Below, in pieces: positions 18,524 to 40,877 of a stretch of 64,000 bases of DNA. The notes beneath the pieces were generated by a model. The model was given only the letters and a program-made list of their open reading frames with translations, did no database searches and was not told the origin of the DNA. The first letter of the stretch is position 1. Every line of letters begins with the position of its first letter. The translations under genes and the position numbers were made by a program. Source of the stretch: Sulfurovum sp. (lineage in GTDB: Bacteria > Campylobacterota > Campylobacteria > Campylobacterales > Sulfurovaceae); assembly GCA_002733215.1 (NCBI GenBank), contig NVUY01000006.1:1-64000 (forward strand), given 5' to 3'.

Positions 18524-20317
18524 TTATTTGTCATCACTCTTTTTGTATCTTTTTCCAGGGAAAAGAGACTTGATATTGTCAGTCAGAACACACCATGTGG
18601 TCCTTCTGTCTTTTTCTATTCCACAGACATAGCCTTCACCCATCAGGGCACTGGTATTGTCCATCAATATAGGAATGAAGAACAAGGAAACCAGTGTCGC
18701 AGCAATACTACCAAAAATAAGTGCTACACCCAGTCCTCCAAAGATAGGATCTGTCGCCAATAAGAGACTTCCCAAGATAATGGCAACAGCCGTAAGCATG
18801 ATCGGCTTTGCACGTGTTGCAGTTGCTATAGCTATGGCTCTCTTCTTCTCTATACACTCATGCCTGATCAACGCCATTGAGAAGTCTATGAGGAGCAATG
18901 AACTCCTCGCAGAGATCCCCATCAGTGAGATAAAGCCTATCAGAGAGGTCGCTGTCAGAAAGAAATGTGTATCACTGGCAAAAAGTTGTATCTTGTCTGC
19001 TACCCAGTGCCCTGAAATAACCCCAATAATAGAAAGGAAACTTCCTATAAGCACAATACCGCTCAGTGCAAAAGATTTATAATATACCACCATCAGCAAA
19101 AACATCAGTACCAATGCAGCGATAAAAGCACCGCCCAGATCCCTGAAGGTATCAAGTGATACTTTCATCTCTCCATCCCAACGCAATAACATTTTACTCC
19201 CTGTTTCTCTGTCTACGACGTCAAGATCAAACATATAAGTATTGATACCAGGTACTTTAGAGATATTATATTCAGAGGAAAGTACTTCTATCATCTTTTC
19301 TCTGGCTTCAAGCAGAGGATAGACCTGACTGACCATGTCACATTCTGTCGTGATCGTGACCAGATTTTTAAGATTTTTTCTAAAGATAGTAGGGTTTGAA
19401 TCTGCACTTTCTATGGTCAATACTTCAGAGATAGGTACCATCATCCCTGTTTTGTTCATAAGTTCCAGTGAAAGCAGTTTATTAAATAAAGAAGCTTCTG
19501 TATCTTCTCCTACTTGACGTGTTTTCTCATTGAGCCTCACAAAAATAGGGATCTGATCCTGCTGGTTTTCTGTATTTTTAGCCGCTACGGGCATCCCTTT
19601 AAATGCAAGATAAATGATCTGATTGACTTGCTCTACATTAAGTCCGCTTCTGATGATCTTTTCTTTATCAGGTACAAGGTTGTACTTCGTATAAATATCA
19701 TCCTGCATTACCTCTATATCGACCAGTCCTTCGGTCTCAGAAAGTATCTTTGTGATTTTACCTGACATCTTTCGCAATGCGGAGCTCTCGTTACCATAAA
19801 GTTCTATCACGATCGTTGCCAAAGTCGGAGGTCCCGAAGGCATCTCTATGAACTTTATATTCGTATAGGGGACGATGTTCCCGCAGCTACTTACTATAAG
19901 AGGTCGTATGCGGTGTACCATCCTAAAAGAAGGTTCATCACGTCCATGTTTATCGGTCAGATTAATGACGATCTCTGCCTGGTTTTTCAACATTTTAAGT
20001 GAACTTCCTTTGACCAGACCGGCATAATCAAGCGGTGCACCTTGCCCCAGATATACTTCCATATCTGTGATCTCTTTTTCACTTTTCAAATTATTCACGA
20101 TACAGGTAGTGACAGACTGCGTTTCTTGTATGGATGCATTGGTCGCTGTATCTACATAGATAGTAAAAGTGTTGGCACTTTTACCTGGAAGCATACGTGC
20201 AAGTACCAGTTCAGTAGGTATCATCATCACTGCGCCGATCATGGAAAGGATCACAAGCATGAACACAATACCCTTATTAAATCTAGAACTAAGGATCTTA
20301 TAGACGATCTTTTCCAT
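18524..20317 (-). CDS. RND efflux pump, C-terminal half (separate polypeptide)
   Basis: This 597-residue protein matches the second half of an AcrB/CzcA-type RND transporter: TM7 (about residues 15-38), a large periplasmic porter/docking region (about 45-390) and TM8-TM12 (about 395-565). In TM10 the motif GISARSSLLLIDF aligns with AcrB GLSAKNAILIVEF, so the proton-relay lysine position is Arg (R471 here). The start ATG 20317 overlaps the stop of the N-terminal half as TAATG and has AAGGAAG upstream, so the split looks translationally coupled rather than a decayed gene. No membrane-fusion or TolC-like gene is adjacent. Confidence 0.85.
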   Translation of the reverse strand: MEKIVYKILSSRFNKGIVFMLVILSMIGAVMMIPTELVLARMLPGKSANTFTIYVDTATNASIQETQSVTTCIVNNLKSEKEITDMEVYLGQGAPLDYAGLVKGSSLKMLKNQAEIVINLTDKHGRDEPSFRMVHRIRPLIVSSCGNIVPYTNIKFIEMPSGPPTLATIVIELYGNESSALRKMSGKITKILSETEGLVDIEVMQDDIYTKYNLVPDKEKIIRSGLNVEQVNQIIYLAFKGMPVAAKNTENQQDQIPIFVRLNEKTRQVGEDTEASLFNKLLSLELMNKTGMMVPISEVLTIESADSNPTIFRKNLKNLVTITTECDMVSQVYPLLEAREKMIEVLSSEYNISKVPGINTYMFDLDVVDRETGSKMLLRWDGEMKVSLDTFRDLGGAFIAALVLMFLLMVVYYKSFALSGIVLIGSFLSIIGVISGHWVADKIQLFASDTHFFLTATSLIGFISLMGISARSSLLLIDFSMALIRHECIEKKRAIAIATATRAKPIMLTAVAIILGSLLLATDPIFGGLGVALIFGSIAATLVSLFFIPILMDNTSALMGEGYVCGIEKDRRTTWCVLTDNIKSLFPGKRYKKSDDK

Positions 20318-21969
20318 TATCTCTCTTCCTTGGGTATTACTTCTTTATCCTGCTTTGTCTTACTCTCAAATTTAATGAATTTACGGGCCAGATAAGGTGC
20401 AAATACATAGGCTACAAAAAGAGAAATAGCCAGTGCCACAGGCACATTAAGCGGTATAGGTTTCATGAACTGTCCCATCATACCACCTACAAACCCCATA
20501 GGTATCATCGTGAGCATAATGGCGATCGTAGCGATGTTGGTAGCAGGTCCTATTTCATCTGTCGCCTGTATGATGATCTCGTCAAATTCCATCTCTTCAG
20601 ATTCTTTTAGATGCAGTCTTCTGTGTATGTTCTCGATCACAATGATCGCATCATCAACGATCAAGCCCAAACTCAGAAGAAAAGCAAAAAGTGTAATACG
20701 ATTGATCGTCTGATCCGTCATCAATGCGATAAAGAGTGTGGCAGCAAGTATCATTGGTACGGCAATGGTCACAACAAGTGATTCTCTCCAGCCAAGAAAC
20801 GGTACAAGGATCAATGCGATGATAAGGATGGTGATCAAGAGGTGATGCACCAGTTCATTCACCGCCTCATTTGCTCTTTCACCATAATTACGTGTCACGA
20901 TAAACCCCATACCACTTTTCAGTAACTCTTCTTTAGACTTAGCGATCTCATCGATGGCACTTTGTGCGATGATGACTGCATTGGTTCCCTTCAGTTTGGA
21001 GATGGTCATAGTGATCTGATCTCCTGCATCAGTAAACAATACTGTGTTATTGTTTTCTACAGGTTCAGAAGCATGTTCTTCTAACTCCATGTTCTCCTGG
21101 TAGGTGAGAGAAACCGTATCATAGTTTTGTATATCATAGCTATATTCCACCTTGGCAATATCTCCTAAATAAATAAGAGATCCTCTATGTTCAGCAATAA
21201 TAAGTTCTTCAAGGTCTTCCACACTGTCCAGGGCATTTTGCACACCAAAAACAATAAGCTTACCCTTAGAGGTTATGGTATCGATCTGTGGAGTATTTGT
21301 TGCAATGGACTGTATGGCCTTGGTCACCTGACTTAAAGAGATATGATAAGATACAAGTTTATGAAGATCGATCATGACATTGAACTGTGGCTTCTTAACC
21401 CCTTTGAGTGTGGTTTTTGCTACATTGTCCAGGGCATTGATACTTTGCTGAAGTTCGCGTATCATCCTGTAAAGTTTAACATTATCTATCTCTCTATCGC
21501 CCAGTTTATAAAAGGCTACCGTCAATATAGGGATGTCAATGTCTATATCAAAAGGTTTAACCAGAGGGAGCATAGTTCCTTTGGGAAGTTGGTCTAGATT
21601 CTGCATAACTTTGTCATAGAGTTTAAGGTTGGATGACTCTCTGTCCTCACCAATATAATACTGAACATTGATCATACCCATATTATTCATGGCAGTACCA
21701 TAAATATTTTCTATCCCTTTGATCTCACGGAGACGTCTTTCCAGAGGTTTGATAAGAACATTATTAATCTCAGAGGGTGTTGCGCCGGGTATAGCAACGA
21801 TGATAGTGCCGCCGCTTACTTCTATCTGCGGATCTTCCTCTCTGGGCATCACTTCCAGAGAAAGAAAGCCCAAAAGTAAGATAGCTATAGCCAGAACAGG
21901 TGTAAGTGGGTTACTCAGAAATCCTTTAGCGAGATGACCTGCAATATTTTGTATTTTATAAACTTCCAT
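20317..21969 (-). CDS. RND efflux pump, N-terminal half (separate polypeptide)
   Basis: This 550-residue protein matches the first half of an RND transporter: TM1 (about residues 22-42), porter subdomains (VMPREEDPQIEVSGGTI, then PGATPSEINNVLIKPLERRL) and TM2-TM6 (about 375-535). TM4 carries GLIVDDAIIVIEN with the proton-relay aspartates D439 and D440. The protein stops in the basic loop after TM6 (KFESKTKQDKEVIPKEER), exactly where full-length RND proteins pass between their two repeats. Substrate unknown; the family exports drugs, metals or lipids. Confidence 0.86.
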   Translation of the reverse strand: MEVYKIQNIAGHLAKGFLSNPLTPVLAIAILLLGFLSLEVMPREEDPQIEVSGGTIIVAIPGATPSEINNVLIKPLERRLREIKGIENIYGTAMNNMGMINVQYYIGEDRESSNLKLYDKVMQNLDQLPKGTMLPLVKPFDIDIDIPILTVAFYKLGDREIDNVKLYRMIRELQQSINALDNVAKTTLKGVKKPQFNVMIDLHKLVSYHISLSQVTKAIQSIATNTPQIDTITSKGKLIVFGVQNALDSVEDLEELIIAEHRGSLIYLGDIAKVEYSYDIQNYDTVSLTYQENMELEEHASEPVENNNTVLFTDAGDQITMTISKLKGTNAVIIAQSAIDEIAKSKEELLKSGMGFIVTRNYGERANEAVNELVHHLLITILIIALILVPFLGWRESLVVTIAVPMILAATLFIALMTDQTINRITLFAFLLSLGLIVDDAIIVIENIHRRLHLKESEEMEFDEIIIQATDEIGPATNIATIAIMLTMIPMGFVGGMMGQFMKPIPLNVPVALAISLFVAYVFAPYLARKFIKFESKTKQDKEVIPKEER

Positions 21970-34411: not shown

Positions 34412-34424
34412 TAATCTGTCTCCT

Positions 34425-34517
34425 TTATAAATAATTTAAGTGCTTCAATGTAAGTAGAAAATGCTTACGTCTCTGCTCTGTTATGTGTACATACATCTCT
34501 TTTTCAAGCTTTGTCAC
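34425..34517 (-). CDS. Possible 30-residue leader peptide upstream of exporter 2
   Basis: A GTG at 34517 opens a 30-codon frame ending with TAA at 34425-34427, 13 bp before the exporter 2 start. The peptide is lysine/arginine/leucine-rich (EQRRKHFLLTLKHLNYL at its end). No Shine-Dalgarno precedes the GTG, so it may be chance or the 3' remnant of a larger gene. Confidence 0.2.
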   Translation of the reverse strand: MTKLEKEMYVHITEQRRKHFLLTLKHLNYL

Positions 34518-34553
34518 ATGTATAGAAAGATTACACTTAAAAAAGTAAAAAAA

Positions 34554-37106
34554 TCATACTTTATCACAACTTGTAACTTTATCTCTATACTTTATATCCA
34601 AAAGTTTAAAATGTTTTTTAGCATAAGCAATTTGCCATGATTCTCTACTTCTCATGTCTCTTTCTTTATCACTACCTTTAGTCTCAACCACAAAAGCTCC
34701 TTCACTCTCATCATATTTAATAACTGCAAAGTCTGGACTGTAGTTTCCAAGTGGTGTTTTGATTTTAAATCGCTTGGGAAGCTTAGCAAAAAATTTAAAT
34801 CGTGTATCAGCACAAGCTATGAAATTTTTTTCAATCGTTGAGTCCCATTGCTCCGCATCATACAAACCTTTTTTGCACGCCTCCAAATCATAACCTTCCA
34901 TCTCTTCAGGAAAAACATTTGTAAACGCATAATACTCACCATTTTCTCTATAAACTATACCCTCACTACTCTCTGTCAATATCTCATGTTTTGCATCATC
35001 AAAAGCTTCTATGGCTTTTTTCATATACGCATCACTATTGCGTATAAATGGTTTTAAATCCACTGCATTCAATATCTCTATAATCATCTTACGAGTAATG
35101 CCTATCTCATTCTCTATCAACGTCACTAAATTAGGTAATACTTGTTCAAAATTAAGTCCAAAACTTTTTTCTTCTGCCACGTAACCATAAACATCATCTT
35201 CTATAGTCCCAAACTGTCTAAGAATTTTTTGTTCTCTTGTTTCAATCTCTTGTAGTTTTCTTATGACTTTTTCTTTATACTTCTCTTCATCAAGTTTAAG
35301 TTCAAAAATCGTTTTACATTTTAGCTTTTTCCAAAGTACCTTAAAATCATCACTAAGTTCTACTTCTTCATATCTACGTTTTGCTGTTTTTTTCTTTTTA
35401 ATATCATTTGGTATGGCACCACTACTGATGCCATTTACCTCATACTCCAACTGTAAACTTCTTGCAAACTCATCAAAGCTCTCATTTGCTATCACAGTAA
35501 GTCTATTGATACTTTTATCTTCTACCCTATTCCCAAATTTATCTACTGCTAAACGCACACCACGTCCTAGTATCTGCCGTTTTTTCATTTCAGATTTGGT
35601 GTCATTGAGTGTAGTGATAAAAAAGACATTGGGGTTGTCCCATCCTTCTTTTAAAGCACTATGCGAAAAGATGAAACTCGTTTTCTCTTCAAAACTTAAA
35701 AGCTTCTCTTTCTCTTTCATTATCAGATCATAGGTTTTTTTAGCCAGTTTTCTGTCGCTGTCATTGTTTTTCAGCTCATCTATATATCCTGATTTACGCT
35801 TAGCAAAGTAGTATTTATAGACATCCTCGGATGCTACATCTTTAAAACTCTCATACTCAACTTTGAGTCTATCAAACTCTTTACAAAAGTGTTTTTGCAT
35901 CCAGCCATCTTCTTCAGCCAAGAAGTTTGCAACTCTATCTATGAAAAATAGACTTAACACTTTAATGTTCTTACTTTTTAGTTCTTCATACTTTTTCATA
36001 TGCATAGCTATCGCTTCACTTATCTGCTGTTCTTGTATCTGTCGTTTTACCTGACCATTGATTTGACTAAGTTCCAAGCGCAAGCCATTTTCAAACTGTA
36101 TAAACATCTCTCTAGCATTTATCTCATCTACAATAAAACCTGAATATATAGGATTTTTAGTCTTATCTTTTAAGCTATCATTCCCTTTTATCTTCACAGA
36201 CTTAGTCACAAACTCATCTTTATTTTTGACTATGAGTTCTAGTGTTGCGACAGGTCTTTTAGACTTTTTATCTATCTCTATTTTAAGTACATTCACATAG
36301 GTATCATTAACAGTTTGATTCTCACTCAGTGCCAAGACATCTATTTGTTTGACCAAGCCTTGTGCAAGTGCCTCTCCTGGTGTTAATGTATAGATTAGAT
36401 TATAGTAGTTCTTGTGTGTTGCAGAAAACCGAAGCGTAAAGAGTGGGTTTAGTTCAGAGATAGATGTTTTACTTAATTCACTCTCCATGTTTTGAGGTTC
36501 GTCTAGTATCAGTATAGGGTTTGTCTTTTGCAGACTCTCTTTAGGTGTTCCTGCAAATCCTTCTTGGGACATGTTGAGTATGGTATTTGCTCTTTTGAAG
36601 CTGTCTATGGTCATAACCATTATCTGTAAAGCATCATCACGAATAAAGTGCTTCAAACTCCCCAATCTGGAAGAGTCATACTCAAAATAATCATAAGGAA
36701 ATTTATACTGTGCAGAAAAGTGTGCCTTCATACTAGCCAAAGCACTTAACACACCCTCACGTATAGCGATAGACGGCGTAATGATGATATACTTATTCCA
36801 CCCATACTTCTCATACAGTTCCAGTATAGACTTAATGTACACATAAGTCTTCCCCGTACCAGTCTCCATCTCCACAGAAAAGTCACGACTTTGCAACATC
36901 AAAGACTCGTCTAAACCGTTATCCTTTTGTACTCTCTGTAAATTTTTAAGCAGTGACACATCATCAAGTATGTAGCCATTACCACACACCGCCTCTCCAC
37001 CAAGAATATCATATTCACATACCTGCCTGCTTTGACCTTGAAAAAGGTCTACTATGGAATTTAGGGCTTTAGTCTGGTGAGGCTGAGAAATATATTTTAT
37101 CTGCAT
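34554..37106 (-). CDS. res: Type III restriction enzyme, Res subunit
   Basis: SF2 helicase/nuclease subunit of a type III restriction-modification system. The 850-residue protein has Walker A METGTGKTYV (about residues 79-88), motif II LDEPQ (about 200) and motif III FSATH, with motif VI QILGRGVR (about 515). The C-terminal PD-(D/E)xK nuclease is SPDFAVI..FVVETKGS (about 800-825). It cleaves DNA after ATP-driven communication between two unmethylated sites and needs Mod for recognition. Its start overlaps the TOPRIM gene by 10 bp, so it is the last gene of the mod-ATPase-TOPRIM-res operon. The DNA is visibly AT-rich. Confidence 0.92.
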   Translation of the reverse strand: MQIKYISQPHQTKALNSIVDLFQGQSRQVCEYDILGGEAVCGNGYILDDVSLLKNLQRVQKDNGLDESLMLQSRDFSVEMETGTGKTYVYIKSILELYEKYGWNKYIIITPSIAIREGVLSALASMKAHFSAQYKFPYDYFEYDSSRLGSLKHFIRDDALQIMVMTIDSFKRANTILNMSQEGFAGTPKESLQKTNPILILDEPQNMESELSKTSISELNPLFTLRFSATHKNYYNLIYTLTPGEALAQGLVKQIDVLALSENQTVNDTYVNVLKIEIDKKSKRPVATLELIVKNKDEFVTKSVKIKGNDSLKDKTKNPIYSGFIVDEINAREMFIQFENGLRLELSQINGQVKRQIQEQQISEAIAMHMKKYEELKSKNIKVLSLFFIDRVANFLAEEDGWMQKHFCKEFDRLKVEYESFKDVASEDVYKYYFAKRKSGYIDELKNNDSDRKLAKKTYDLIMKEKEKLLSFEEKTSFIFSHSALKEGWDNPNVFFITTLNDTKSEMKKRQILGRGVRLAVDKFGNRVEDKSINRLTVIANESFDEFARSLQLEYEVNGISSGAIPNDIKKKKTAKRRYEEVELSDDFKVLWKKLKCKTIFELKLDEEKYKEKVIRKLQEIETREQKILRQFGTIEDDVYGYVAEEKSFGLNFEQVLPNLVTLIENEIGITRKMIIEILNAVDLKPFIRNSDAYMKKAIEAFDDAKHEILTESSEGIVYRENGEYYAFTNVFPEEMEGYDLEACKKGLYDAEQWDSTIEKNFIACADTRFKFFAKLPKRFKIKTPLGNYSPDFAVIKYDESEGAFVVETKGSDKERDMRSRESWQIAYAKKHFKLLDIKYRDKVTSCDKV

Positions 37107-37633
37107 TCTATCTCTTCTAAAATTTTAGCTTTACATAAAAAGTATTTCAATGATTTGTTATTACGATAATCAATAGACTTTTTTGAACCTATAAATTTTT
37201 TAACTAATTCTTTTTCATTCAAAGATTTTTTAAATTCAAACTTATTTTCTAAATCCTTCTTAAGTTTGTTATCACTTCTTTCCCAAGCAGACAACATCCA
37301 AGCTTCTATTTCATTTGAAACTATTGTTACCACTACATTATCTTTTAACTCTAGTGAAACCTTTTTTGTATACCATTCTTTTAACTCTACAATACAGGTA
37401 AATTTTTGTCCTGTATCGCATTGCGTATCCAAATCAACTAAGACATGAACTTCCTTGCATCCTCTAGCAAATAAGGCTTCTATATCTTGATGTACTTTTT
37501 TTCTATTGAGTATCTTGCAAGTTCCTTTTTTCCCAGGACAAATGACGATAATATCTCTTTTAAAATTAGGTTTAAAGTACTTATCAAAAAATTCTTTATC
37601 ACTATCACCCTCAACTATTAGCCCTATCTTCAC
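37097..37633 (-). CDS. Small TOPRIM-like nuclease protein inserted in the type III R-M operon
   Basis: The 178-residue protein starts MKIGLIVEGDSDKEFF, with the TOPRIM-type glutamate E8, and has VLVDLDTQ with D67 and D69 (the DxD metal site). The later EIEAWMLSAWE resembles the conserved EIEAW-type segment of DUF4276/RloB/OLD-like TOPRIM proteins. Such domains cut DNA or RNA with divalent metal. It overlaps the ATPase gene by 4 nt and res by 10 bp, so its synthesis is locked to both. Paired ATPase plus TOPRIM genes are known from OLD, Gabija and PARIS defence. Exact family is uncertain. Confidence 0.7.
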   Translation of the reverse strand: MKIGLIVEGDSDKEFFDKYFKPNFKRDIIVICPGKKGTCKILNRKKVHQDIEALFARGCKEVHVLVDLDTQCDTGQKFTCIVELKEWYTKKVSLELKDNVVVTIVSNEIEAWMLSAWERSDNKLKKDLENKFEFKKSLNEKELVKKFIGSKKSIDYRNNKSLKYFLCKAKILEEIECR

Positions 37634-38886
37634 GCTTCTTCCTCAAGATTCAAGTCATCTAAAATACCTATTTTTAATATCTCTACCAAATCATCTTTAT
37701 AGATTTTCATAATTTTTTTAATGTTATGTATGTCTTTTGCTCTTTTGCCTTGAGTATTACCATCATAATCTCTATATAAAAATAGTATTTCGTCCAAATT
37801 CAACTCTTGAAGTATCTCCATACTATGCGTGGTAAAAAATATTTGCTTATCATCATCTCTCATCGTCTCTATAATAGTAGACAACACCTTCATATGCATA
37901 TGACGTTCAGGTTCTTCTATCATCAAAGCTACGGAATTTTTATTGCCAAGTATAGCACTCATTATCGCTATAAAGTGAGCTGCACCATCTGATGTCTCTT
38001 CTAGTGGTACCTTATATTCATCTTCTATAAAATAAAGTCTTTTATGTGCTTCACCTGATATTTCTATACCATTGACTTGTTCCACTTCTCCTATGAGTGA
38101 AGTTGATATATCTTCAATAGTCTCATCATCTAGACCACTTATAAAAGATATTAGGTTTGTACCATATTTATCTAAAGTTGATGTCTCCGGCATGATCTGC
38201 TTTTCTTTCATCAGATAAGAATGAAAGTAATGTGACTGAAATATAGAACTTCTGCTAAAAACATGTTTAAACTCAATAGGTCTAGTTATATTATCTTTAC
38301 TGTCTAAATACATACCTAACAAACTAATCAAAGCATTTTTATTGTTTTTTGTAGATTCAAGTTCGTAATTTAAGCTACTATGATTGTATTTGAAATGAAA
38401 TTTAGAATACTTTTTTGTACCTAACAACGTATCATATTTTTCATAATCAAGTAAACTATATTTTAACTCTTCACCATAAGACCTTAACCTAAAATGGTCA
38501 AAGAAACCTACCCGTTTATCTTCTTCCTGTACATCAACATACTTCATAAACCCATCTATATCAACATCTATGGTATTTAGCTCTCCCATACTAATGTTAA
38601 AAATAATATTACATTTATAGTCAATCAATTCTTTATAAATCAACACCCTATTGGTAAATTCAAATTCAGCTCTAAATAGGCTATTGTCTTCTTGAAATCT
38701 AAAGTTTTTCTTGAAAGTTATTTTTTCTGTATCTAATTTAAACAATACATTATCTATAAACTCAATAGCTTCAATCAAATTACTTTTGCCTGTGTTGTTG
38801 GGAGCTATCAGACAATTAAGTTTACCAAACTCAAACTCACTATGCCAAAAACTTTTAAAATTATGAATATATAACTTTTTTAACAT
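37630..38886 (-). CDS. RecF/OLD-like AAA ATPase inserted in the type III R-M operon
   Basis: ABC-type ATPase head (AAA_15/AAA_21 kind), 418 residues. Walker A is APNNTGKS (residues 28-35), directly after the MLKKLYIHNFKSF opening typical of OLD/RecF ATPases. The signature-like ETSDGAAHF lies near 295, Walker B is VALMIEEPERHMH (about 318) and the H-loop is FFTTHS (about 350). The middle part shows no long coiled coil. It lies 9 bp after mod and overlaps the TOPRIM gene by 4 nt. Probably works with that protein as an ATPase-gated nuclease complex. Function in the R-M operon is inferred. Confidence 0.82.
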   Translation of the reverse strand: MLKKLYIHNFKSFWHSEFEFGKLNCLIAPNNTGKSNLIEAIEFIDNVLFKLDTEKITFKKNFRFQEDNSLFRAEFEFTNRVLIYKELIDYKCNIIFNISMGELNTIDVDIDGFMKYVDVQEEDKRVGFFDHFRLRSYGEELKYSLLDYEKYDTLLGTKKYSKFHFKYNHSSLNYELESTKNNKNALISLLGMYLDSKDNITRPIEFKHVFSRSSIFQSHYFHSYLMKEKQIMPETSTLDKYGTNLISFISGLDDETIEDISTSLIGEVEQVNGIEISGEAHKRLYFIEDEYKVPLEETSDGAAHFIAIMSAILGNKNSVALMIEEPERHMHMKVLSTIIETMRDDDKQIFFTTHSMEILQELNLDEILFLYRDYDGNTQGKRAKDIHNIKKIMKIYKDDLVEILKIGILDDLNLEEEA

Positions 38887-38895
38887 CTCATATCC

Positions 38896-40719
38896 TTATA
38901 AAACTTCCAAATCCAAATTCTCACGCAAGTTCAATTTCACGTTGGTTGTCAATGCTTTTTCGTAGCAGATAAGCTTTGCATCTTTAGGTACATCGTGTAC
39001 GATGTCACCTTCTATCTGCTTGTCGAAGCTAAAGTAAAAAGTACGTTCCTCTTCACTAAGCGTAATGAAGCTGTATTTTTCAGACTTTACCTCATCAACC
39101 TTAGCACTCAAAGTAAAGCCATTTTTTAGCCCTACTTCATAGACGATGTCTAGCTCTTTTGCACCTTGAGTCAAGATGTTTTCATGGAACATACTCATCT
39201 TAAGCATCTTCTCTATCTCATCATAACTCATATCAGGTCGTTTTTTAACCTCTTTGAAGATTTGGAAATTTGAGTTGTCAAGGTAAAAGGACTTGAAGCC
39301 TTCTTTGTAGTCTAACTTCTTCATGACTCTTTTTATGCGTTCTTTGGTGATGTCACTTATCTTGGTATAATCAGATTTGTTGTCACCAATACTTTCAGGG
39401 AGCTGGACTAAAATATACTTTCTTATTCCTTTATCTTCTTTATTTAGAGCCATAGTTGCGTGGGCTGCAGTACCACTTCCTGCAAAAAAATCTAGAATAA
39501 TATCATCATCTTTTGTAGCGATCTCAAGTAAATACTTGATTAGGGTATAGGGTTTCGGAAAGCTAAATATTTTACTATCAAAAAGATCAACTATTTCTTT
39601 GTTCCCATTTTCACTCATGCCAACTATTTTTGGAAGATGTGTAGAAACTGCCTTTAATGCCTCTATCGATCCGTACTTTTCCAGTGCTTTTGCTTGATCT
39701 TCACTTTCAAAAACTCTATAGGCTGGTATTGTAATATTTAAAAACTCGTAATCATCTGGAAAGACAATCTTACCCTTGTTATAGTGATCTTGAAATGTAT
39801 TTTTTGAAACACCCCATACACGTTTTGGATTAAATTGGTATTCTTTATTTGTTTTTGGATTTATCATATTAAATGCAGAGTTAGGTCTTTCTTTTGCACT
39901 TCTTTGAGTAGTCAAATCAGATAAACGCCAACCATCATCTGGAAAATCGTCTGTATAGTGATATTTTCTCGTATGTGTAATTCCTGCTAAGAAGCTTTTC
40001 TTTGCATAACAAATAATCCACTCATAATCTTGTGATACACCAAAAGGCACATCACTTTTGGCAGTTCTTTTTCTCCATGGAAAACAAGCTACAAAATTCT
40101 CTTCCCCATAAATCTCATCCATCACCTTACGAAGATTATGCACTTCATCATCATCTATACTCACAAAGATAACCCCATCATCTTTAAGCAGATTACGACT
40201 TAGCCAAAGCCGTGGGTATATCATGTTGAGCCAGTTGGTGTGTCTGCGTCCTGTGCTGTTGGTTTTGGTCGTGGTGTAGCCCTCTTCTCGGAGTTGGTCT
40301 GTTTGTATGAGGTAGTTTTGTATCGTGTCTCCCCATGTATCGGAGTAGACAAAGTCTTTATCTTTGTTGTACGGAGGGTCGATGTATATCATTTTGATTT
40401 TTTTATGGTAAGAGAGTTGCAGAAACTTCAGCACTTCCAAGTTATCACCCTCTATGAAAACATTATTACCATCTGGTACAGTTGCATCTTCATCTACCTT
40501 GAGTGTAGCATTGGTTTTTTCTCGTATAGTACGGTAACAGTCACGCTTACCACTCCATGTAAAGCTATAATGTTCATGTGATTCATTGACACTTTCTCCA
40601 AAAACATCTCTAAGCTTATCGGGTATAATTTCCCCATCTTCAAATATCTCAGGAAGTATCTCCTGCAAGGCTTTAAGTTTTTGCTGTTTTATGTCAAGGC
40701 TTTCTAAAGTCACAAACAT
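38896..40719 (-). CDS. mod: Type III DNA-methyltransferase, Mod subunit
   Basis: N6-adenine methyltransferase and recognition subunit of the type III system. Motif IV DPPYN lies near residue 114 and the SAM-binding motif I DFFAGSGTAAHA near 418, the order of beta-class enzymes. The region between them (about 190-330) is the variable target recognition domain. About 607 residues from ATG 40719; a TTG at 40725 would add two. Neither start has a clear Shine-Dalgarno. No simple-sequence repeat for phase variation is seen, unlike many mod genes in this class. Confidence 0.92.
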   Translation of the reverse strand: MFVTLESLDIKQQKLKALQEILPEIFEDGEIIPDKLRDVFGESVNESHEHYSFTWSGKRDCYRTIREKTNATLKVDEDATVPDGNNVFIEGDNLEVLKFLQLSYHKKIKMIYIDPPYNKDKDFVYSDTWGDTIQNYLIQTDQLREEGYTTTKTNSTGRRHTNWLNMIYPRLWLSRNLLKDDGVIFVSIDDDEVHNLRKVMDEIYGEENFVACFPWRKRTAKSDVPFGVSQDYEWIICYAKKSFLAGITHTRKYHYTDDFPDDGWRLSDLTTQRSAKERPNSAFNMINPKTNKEYQFNPKRVWGVSKNTFQDHYNKGKIVFPDDYEFLNITIPAYRVFESEDQAKALEKYGSIEALKAVSTHLPKIVGMSENGNKEIVDLFDSKIFSFPKPYTLIKYLLEIATKDDDIILDFFAGSGTAAHATMALNKEDKGIRKYILVQLPESIGDNKSDYTKISDITKERIKRVMKKLDYKEGFKSFYLDNSNFQIFKEVKKRPDMSYDEIEKMLKMSMFHENILTQGAKELDIVYEVGLKNGFTLSAKVDEVKSEKYSFITLSEEERTFYFSFDKQIEGDIVHDVPKDAKLICYEKALTTNVKLNLRENLDLEVL

Positions 40720-40877
40720 CCCCAATATGTTAAGATGATATATTTTAGCGTAAAAAATGTAGAGTTTGGTCTTACAACACTTGAGAGCTGTCGGTTTCCT
40801 ACCACACGGGTGATCACATCCTGTGCCTTATCAGGGTAATTACCTATAGCGTAGAGAGCCTTAGTACAAAAATCATT
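40713..40877 (-). pseudogene. Protein-like open frame without start, possible gene remnant
   Basis: Between pqiC and mod, one minus-strand frame is open for about 55 codons and reads like protein (NDFCTKALYAIGNYPDK, then AQDVITRVVGNRQLSSVV), ending at a stop inside the mod start region. It has no start codon. I do not recognise the family. It may be a fragment of a gene cut when the R-M island entered. The rest of this 151-bp gap shows nothing else. Confidence 0.3.

Follow-up and report, generated by a model that had tools for sequence, protein, structure and literature searches.

We analyzed a stretch of 64,000 nucleotides from the Sulfurovum sp. assembly GCA_002733215.1 (contig NVUY01000006.1, positions 1 to 64,000 of the forward strand; hereafter the window), a genome of 2.65 Mb in 47 contigs. 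It harbors a type III restriction-modification (R-M) operon in which the genes for an ATPase and a small TOPRIM protein lie between the methyltransferase gene mod and the restriction gene res. The open reading frame (ORF) listing of the window gives four intact genes, all on the minus strand, in the order mod, ATPase, TOPRIM, res. The genes and segments discussed here are listed below, with the matches and AlphaFold 2 (AF2) models on which they rest.

38896..40725, minus strand: mod, type III DNA methyltransferase, 609 aa (Pfam N6_N4_Mtase, 1.5e-32; PADLOC MTase_III, 2.4e-152; DPPY and FAGSGT motifs)
37630..38886, minus strand: OLD/SMC-type ABC ATPase, 418 aa (Pfam, PADLOC, AF2 model)
38167..38721, minus strand: middle of the ATPase, residues 56-240, hypervariable, proposed sensor region (low pairwise identity)
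37630..37821, minus strand: C-terminal tail of the ATPase, residues 356-418, proposed TOPRIM docking segment (divergence covaries with TOPRIM)
37097..37633, minus strand: small TOPRIM protein, 178 aa, proposed nuclease effector (DUF4276, DUF3226, AF2 model)
34554..37106, minus strand: res, type III restriction subunit with helicase and PD-(D/E)XK endonuclease, 850 aa (ResIII, 6.1e-14; RE_endonuc, 3.1e-30; PADLOC REase_III, 4.3e-192)
34412..40876, no strand assigned: extent of the inserted four-gene cassette, with an MMPL transporter gene on one side and a pqiC-like gene on the other

A gap of 9 bp separates mod from the ATPase gene, and overlaps of 4 and 10 bp join ATPase to TOPRIM and TOPRIM to res; this layout, described earlier in a first-pass annotation of the window, matches the gene coordinates exactly. 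The start codon of mod is TTG, with an in-frame ATG two codons on, at 40719, which was the boundary used in that annotation. The motifs of Mod (DPPY, FAGSGT) and Res (GTGKT, DEPQ, PD...ETKG) are complete, and a mod with N6/N4 methyltransferase motifs followed by a res with helicase and PD-(D/E)XK domains identifies the system as type III R-M. A scan for promoters and terminators gave no signal above that of shuffled sequences. L106, from another genome of the genus, has the pqiC-like and MMPL genes 28 bp from each other and no R-M operon there, and thus the four genes form a single cassette at this place in the window. The related operons L014 and L015 are about 90% identical in DNA and have unrelated flanks.

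Relatives of the pair were sought in a phylum survey of 397 genomes and in a scan of 84,980 species genomes with an ATPase alignment, which returned 12 loci. The pair is present in few genomes, yet nearly always in the same place. The order mod-ATPase-TOPRIM-res was found in seven operons with mod visible (the window, L010, L012, L013, L014, L015 and L016), and in L017, L018 and L112, where the contig end truncates the operon, res directly follows TOPRIM. Gene spacing is near-identical in the four-gene operons of other genomes. Since order and spacing recur in this way, the arrangement is not due to chance and the view of the first-pass annotation, that these genes form a coupled operon and not an accidental assembly, is borne out by six further operons with mod visible and three at contig ends. 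The close relatives belong to Campylobacterota, for example Sulfurimonas and Sulfuricurvum metagenome-assembled genomes; in the genus to which the genome of L012 belongs, 7 of the 135 genomes gave TOPRIM matches, one of which is weak.

ATPase and TOPRIM are conserved together, mostly in the mod-res slot and sometimes alone. In L011 a complete pair was detected on its own: the genes on either side are unrelated and encode an APH-type kinase and a protein of the IF-2B family, and neither mod nor res lies on the 8.4-kb contig. In L019 TOPRIM is not followed by res, and the upstream side lies beyond the contig, while L020 and L021 are remote stand-alone pairs with no R-M gene nearby. The res of L016 lacks roughly residues 186-572, most of the helicase (L016:5851-7247), and its mod, ATPase and TOPRIM frames are open. 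Searches of plasmids (tblastn with TOPRIM and with ATPase) and of IMG/VR (TOPRIM and ATPase alignment) gave no match, and a scan of genome contigs with a single TOPRIM sequence found nothing, the loci being recovered later with the ATPase alignment. One match (G364/L009) was rejected as chance: it is partial and 25% identical, and neither an ATPase gene nor R-M genes accompany it at that locus. A remote ATPase-TOPRIM pair, with no mod or res in view, is present at L114:404-2070, as a second pair in the genome of L108 (G508). Directly 3' of the L018 res (gap 0 bp) there is an ORF of 447 aa that matches no Pfam family significantly (L018:4058-5401).

The first of the two inserted genes encodes an OLD/SMC-type ABC ATPase. 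It matches Pfam AAA_21 (3.6e-19, 70.4 bits) and AAA_15 (2.3e-15, 57.5 bits), and in PADLOC HEC-01A (1.1e-29, the best match) and AbiLi (7.7e-27). Its motifs are intact, with Walker A APNNTGKS at residues 28-35, an SDG signature and Walker B MIEEPE spanning residues 299-329, and FTTHS. The AF2 model has a predicted local distance difference test (pLDDT) value of 85, and the heads of PtuA, SMC and Rad50 match it at Z of about 19. Two segments depart from the rest of the protein. Residues 56-240, approximately, have a mean pairwise identity of 0.37, against 0.71 and 0.67 in the flanking lobes, and the L014 and L015 operons fall to 55% DNA identity there; we propose that this hypervariable middle may be a phage sensor region. 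The other segment is the tail, residues 356-418, whose divergence follows that of TOPRIM in 11 related pairs (Mantel r 0.91, p 0.0001; r 0.92 after partialling out the ATPase body), while for the stretch just ahead of it (GTNL motif through FTTHS) there is no such relation (r 0.01, p 0.43). Within six complete operons the tail-TOPRIM correlation is 0.97. Because the last 60 or so residues change with the TOPRIM type and the remainder does not, the tail is a putative effector dock, and TOPRIM may bind to it physically; the covariation gives indirect evidence for the interaction that the first-pass annotation had supposed between the two proteins. L017 illustrates the exchange: against L012 its ATPase body is 70% and its Res 83% identical but its TOPRIM only 26%, and it resembles L010 instead in tail (70%) and TOPRIM (61%). 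Such a pattern is suggestive of recombination within the ATPase gene, the effector apparently moving together with the proposed docking tail.

The partner is, judging from its family matches, a DUF4276-type TOPRIM closest to PADLOC HEC-01, with AbiL next. The window protein matches DUF4276 (2.1e-9) and DUF3226 (1.6e-4) in Pfam, and among 13 members of the family matches were found to DUF4276 in 11, DUF3226 in 9, Toprim in 7 and OLD-like_TOPRIM in 4, those to Toprim and OLD-like_TOPRIM all being weak. HEC-01B matches 11 of the 13. The PADLOC scores of the window protein are weak, with HEC-01B (7.4e-7) and PDC-M31B (5e-7) tied, followed by mad4 (2.4e-4) and AbiLii (0.011). All members share E8, D67 and an I-E-x-W motif. 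In structural comparison with VIA-align the best match of the AF2 model was PH0156 (2p62; Z 8.9, 150 residues aligned, root-mean-square deviation 3.9), and the C-terminal region of B. pseudomallei OLD (6nk8) aligned at Z 7.3 (143 residues, deviation 3.9), although Z values of 7-8 may be background. These fold matches agree with the weak Toprim and OLD-like_TOPRIM matches and point to a TOPRIM fold. Searches of PDB sequences with TOPRIM, by phmmer and by profile, gave nothing credible.

The AAA_21/AAA_15, HEC-01A and DUF4276 matches agree with the earlier suggestion of a defence-type ATPase-TOPRIM pair. HEC-01 (Hma-embedded candidate 1 of PADLOC, an ATPase HEC-01A with HEC-01B) is likewise a two-gene system of ATPase and small partner embedded within another defence locus, but its host locus is the Hma system and not type III R-M. 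The embedding in Hma is the discovery context of HEC-01 more than its functional definition. The weak and tied scores against HEC-01B and PDC-M31B indicate that the window partner forms a distinct subfamily. AbiL, the Lactococcus abortive infection system AbiLi-AbiLii, also combines an AAA ATPase with a small TOPRIM-like partner, although the similarity of our protein to AbiLii is marginal (0.011); AbiL is not known to occur in R-M operons. MADS (mad3/mad4) was considered, since the ATPase matches MAD3 (3.5e-16) and TOPRIM weakly mad4 (2.4e-4), but it is a larger locus, here there are four genes without further MADS genes, and the MAD3 score is 59.4 bits against a cut-off of 420. Gabija was rejected because ATPase and TOPRIM are separate genes and not a GajA fusion, and the only helicase is the R-M Res, with no GajB.

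PARIS, to which the first-pass annotation compared the pair, shares with it an AAA_15/AAA_21-class ATPase gene (ariA) followed by a TOPRIM nuclease gene (ariB). PARIS is defined by an ATPase scoring at least 32 bits to AAA_15 or at least 27 bits to AAA_21, together with a DUF4435 (PF14491) partner (PMC9122126). The ATPase lies above both thresholds. However, neither the window TOPRIM nor the set of 13 members gave a DUF4435 match at E<=1, AriB is absent from the PADLOC matches, and AriA, when solved structures were searched by profile, reached no better than E 1e-4, after PtuA, OLD and retron ATPases. PARIS membership is therefore rejected, HEC-01 and AbiL being the closest named families.

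The place of the insertion is used by many other modules. The phylum sample contains 29 Res homologs (E<=1e-60), 24 with the complete mod-to-res gap in view; 16 of the 24 gaps hold at least one gene, one holds a RhuM remnant (L101) and seven are empty (L053, L061, L063, L064, L067, L103 and L105). The extra ORF of L103 is probably the 3' part of mod. The sample was picked by similarity to Res and not by cargo, and the share of 16 in 24 refers to type III operons alone. Besides the ATPase-TOPRIM pair (the window and L007), the slot holds AbiD/Abi_2 (L051, L054 and L062), DUF3800 with PDC-M04B (L052), a PifA-like gene (L055, 5173-7302), a pentapeptide protein (L056), a Schlafen-type protein (L057), Pycsar (PycC/PycTM; L058, 3518-5286), NA37 with an unknown protein (L060), a RloC-like AAA_13 protein (PDC-S06) with Fic (L065), CBASS with a Schlafen-type protein (L066, 4175-10673), MNT/HepT (L100), RhuM (L102) and RhuM with YhcG (L104). 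The Res closest to that of the window (L051, 88% identical, same genus) has AbiD in the slot instead. The mod-res gap of type III operons thus looks like a phylum-wide port for defence cargo in Campylobacterota. Since the slot is general for such cargo, the insertion need not imply a mechanistic link to Res or Mod. Two slot proteins were recorded separately: a 506-aa protein beside the nucleoid-associated protein NA37 (L060:4250-5770), which has no significant Pfam or PADLOC family and is a candidate new defence gene, and a 799-aa protein without Pfam match beside YhcG and Abi_2 genes (L054:7191-9590).

We consider it probable that the window encodes a type III R-M operon carrying a self-contained two-gene abortive-infection back-up module in the mod-res gap. 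The pair acts as an autonomous cassette with a preference for a place where many unrelated modules of suicide or abortive type are also found, and it is most simply read as a back-up layer expressed together with R-M. The R-M enzyme would be the first layer of defence and the pair the second, linked to it mainly by co-transmission and co-translation. The ATPase would keep the TOPRIM nuclease inactive via its C-terminal tail and sense a phage product via the fast-evolving middle domain; TOPRIM would then be released or activated and cut nucleic acid, either tRNA, like AriB, or DNA, like OLD, and the infected cell would be stopped. This explanation is the most likely one given the conserved order, the lone L011 pair, the unrelated slot cargo of relatives, the tail covariation, the hypervariable middle, the folds and the precedent of BREX, where OLD-ABC/TOPRIM dyads are back-up effectors (PMC12839542). 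Several observations weigh against it. Of about 12 close members, 10 have the pair between mod and res, a share that hints at something beyond coincidental co-location. In L010, L013, L017 and L018 the DxD motif of TOPRIM has K in place of its second acidic residue, which leaves the nuclease chemistry uncertain there; the TOPRIM model is of moderate quality (pLDDT 79), and Foldseek gave no match to it at E<=0.001.

A more doubtful explanation is a guard similar to PrrC, in which the ATPase would watch Mod and Res or phage anti-restriction proteins and TOPRIM would kill the cell once restriction is blocked. PrrC in EcoprrI fires when Stp inhibits, and PARIS fires on Ocr (PMC12707154), and the preferred site inside the operon with its overlapping frames suits such a role. 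The divergence of the ATPase middle correlates with that of Mod (r 0.68, p 0.02) and Res (r 0.44, p 0.003), in six operons only, where shared descent explains it too, but the divergence of TOPRIM is not clearly correlated with that of Res (r 0.14, p 0.23). Also speaking against a guard are the pair alone in L011, the case of L016, where mod, ATPase and TOPRIM are intact beside a res without its central part, and a slot that takes modules of other kinds. A joint reading, tentative in the same degree, would make the mod-res gap a general exchange port for interchangeable suicide modules and the pair a type III-specific analog of PrrC guarding R-M, with effectors swapped by recombination inside the ATPase gene and the tail travelling with the nuclease. 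It is very unlikely that the two genes are an addiction pair of toxin-antitoxin type, stabilizing the R-M cassette without antiviral sensing. The operon does move as a cassette, as the empty site in the same genus and the unrelated flanks of the similar L014 and L015 operons indicate, but the ATPase middle evolves far faster than the rest, as expected for a pathogen sensor, and the closest named families are anti-phage or candidate anti-phage systems. Least probable, and very much so, is the idea that the pair belongs to the type III enzyme itself, with ATPase and TOPRIM as accessory subunits that serve the Mod-Res complex as a processing nuclease, as raised in the first-pass annotation, or as a motor. 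Only the coupled operon speaks for it; the pair is missing from most surveyed type III operons, seven of 24 slots are empty and others hold unrelated modules, L011, L020 and L021 have no R-M gene near the pair, and the Mod and Res motifs are complete.

Nesting itself is already known from BREX and type I R-M examples. PrrC/RloC and DarTG2 are likewise defence genes between restriction subunit genes (PMC12707154; PMC12255303), DarTG2 being found within a type I R-M locus (PMC12255303), but these systems are type I and carry other effectors. The BREX dyads follow the same logic in a methylation-based defence locus, although BREX is not type III R-M and DUF4276 is not mentioned in PMC12839542. 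Searches by 'guilt-by-embedding' already exploit nested defence loci (PMC12988326). A literature search found no description of the present arrangement, of a type III mod-res port or of tail-effector exchange, which is weak evidence, with subscription papers and bioRxiv preprints mostly not covered. With these operons the theme of defence nested in defence, known from type I R-M, Hma and BREX, reaches type III R-M, where it has a definite slot that recurs, and reading mod-res gaps is a cheap route to new anti-phage modules. The joint exchange of tail and TOPRIM predicts the ATPase segment that holds the effector, and the hypervariable middle points to a possible trigger-sensing site.

Elsewhere in the window, ARAGORN called a tRNA-Arg (CCT) at 20996-21085 on the plus strand, within a 550-aa ORF on the minus strand (20317-21969); either the call is false or the tRNA overlaps the ORF.

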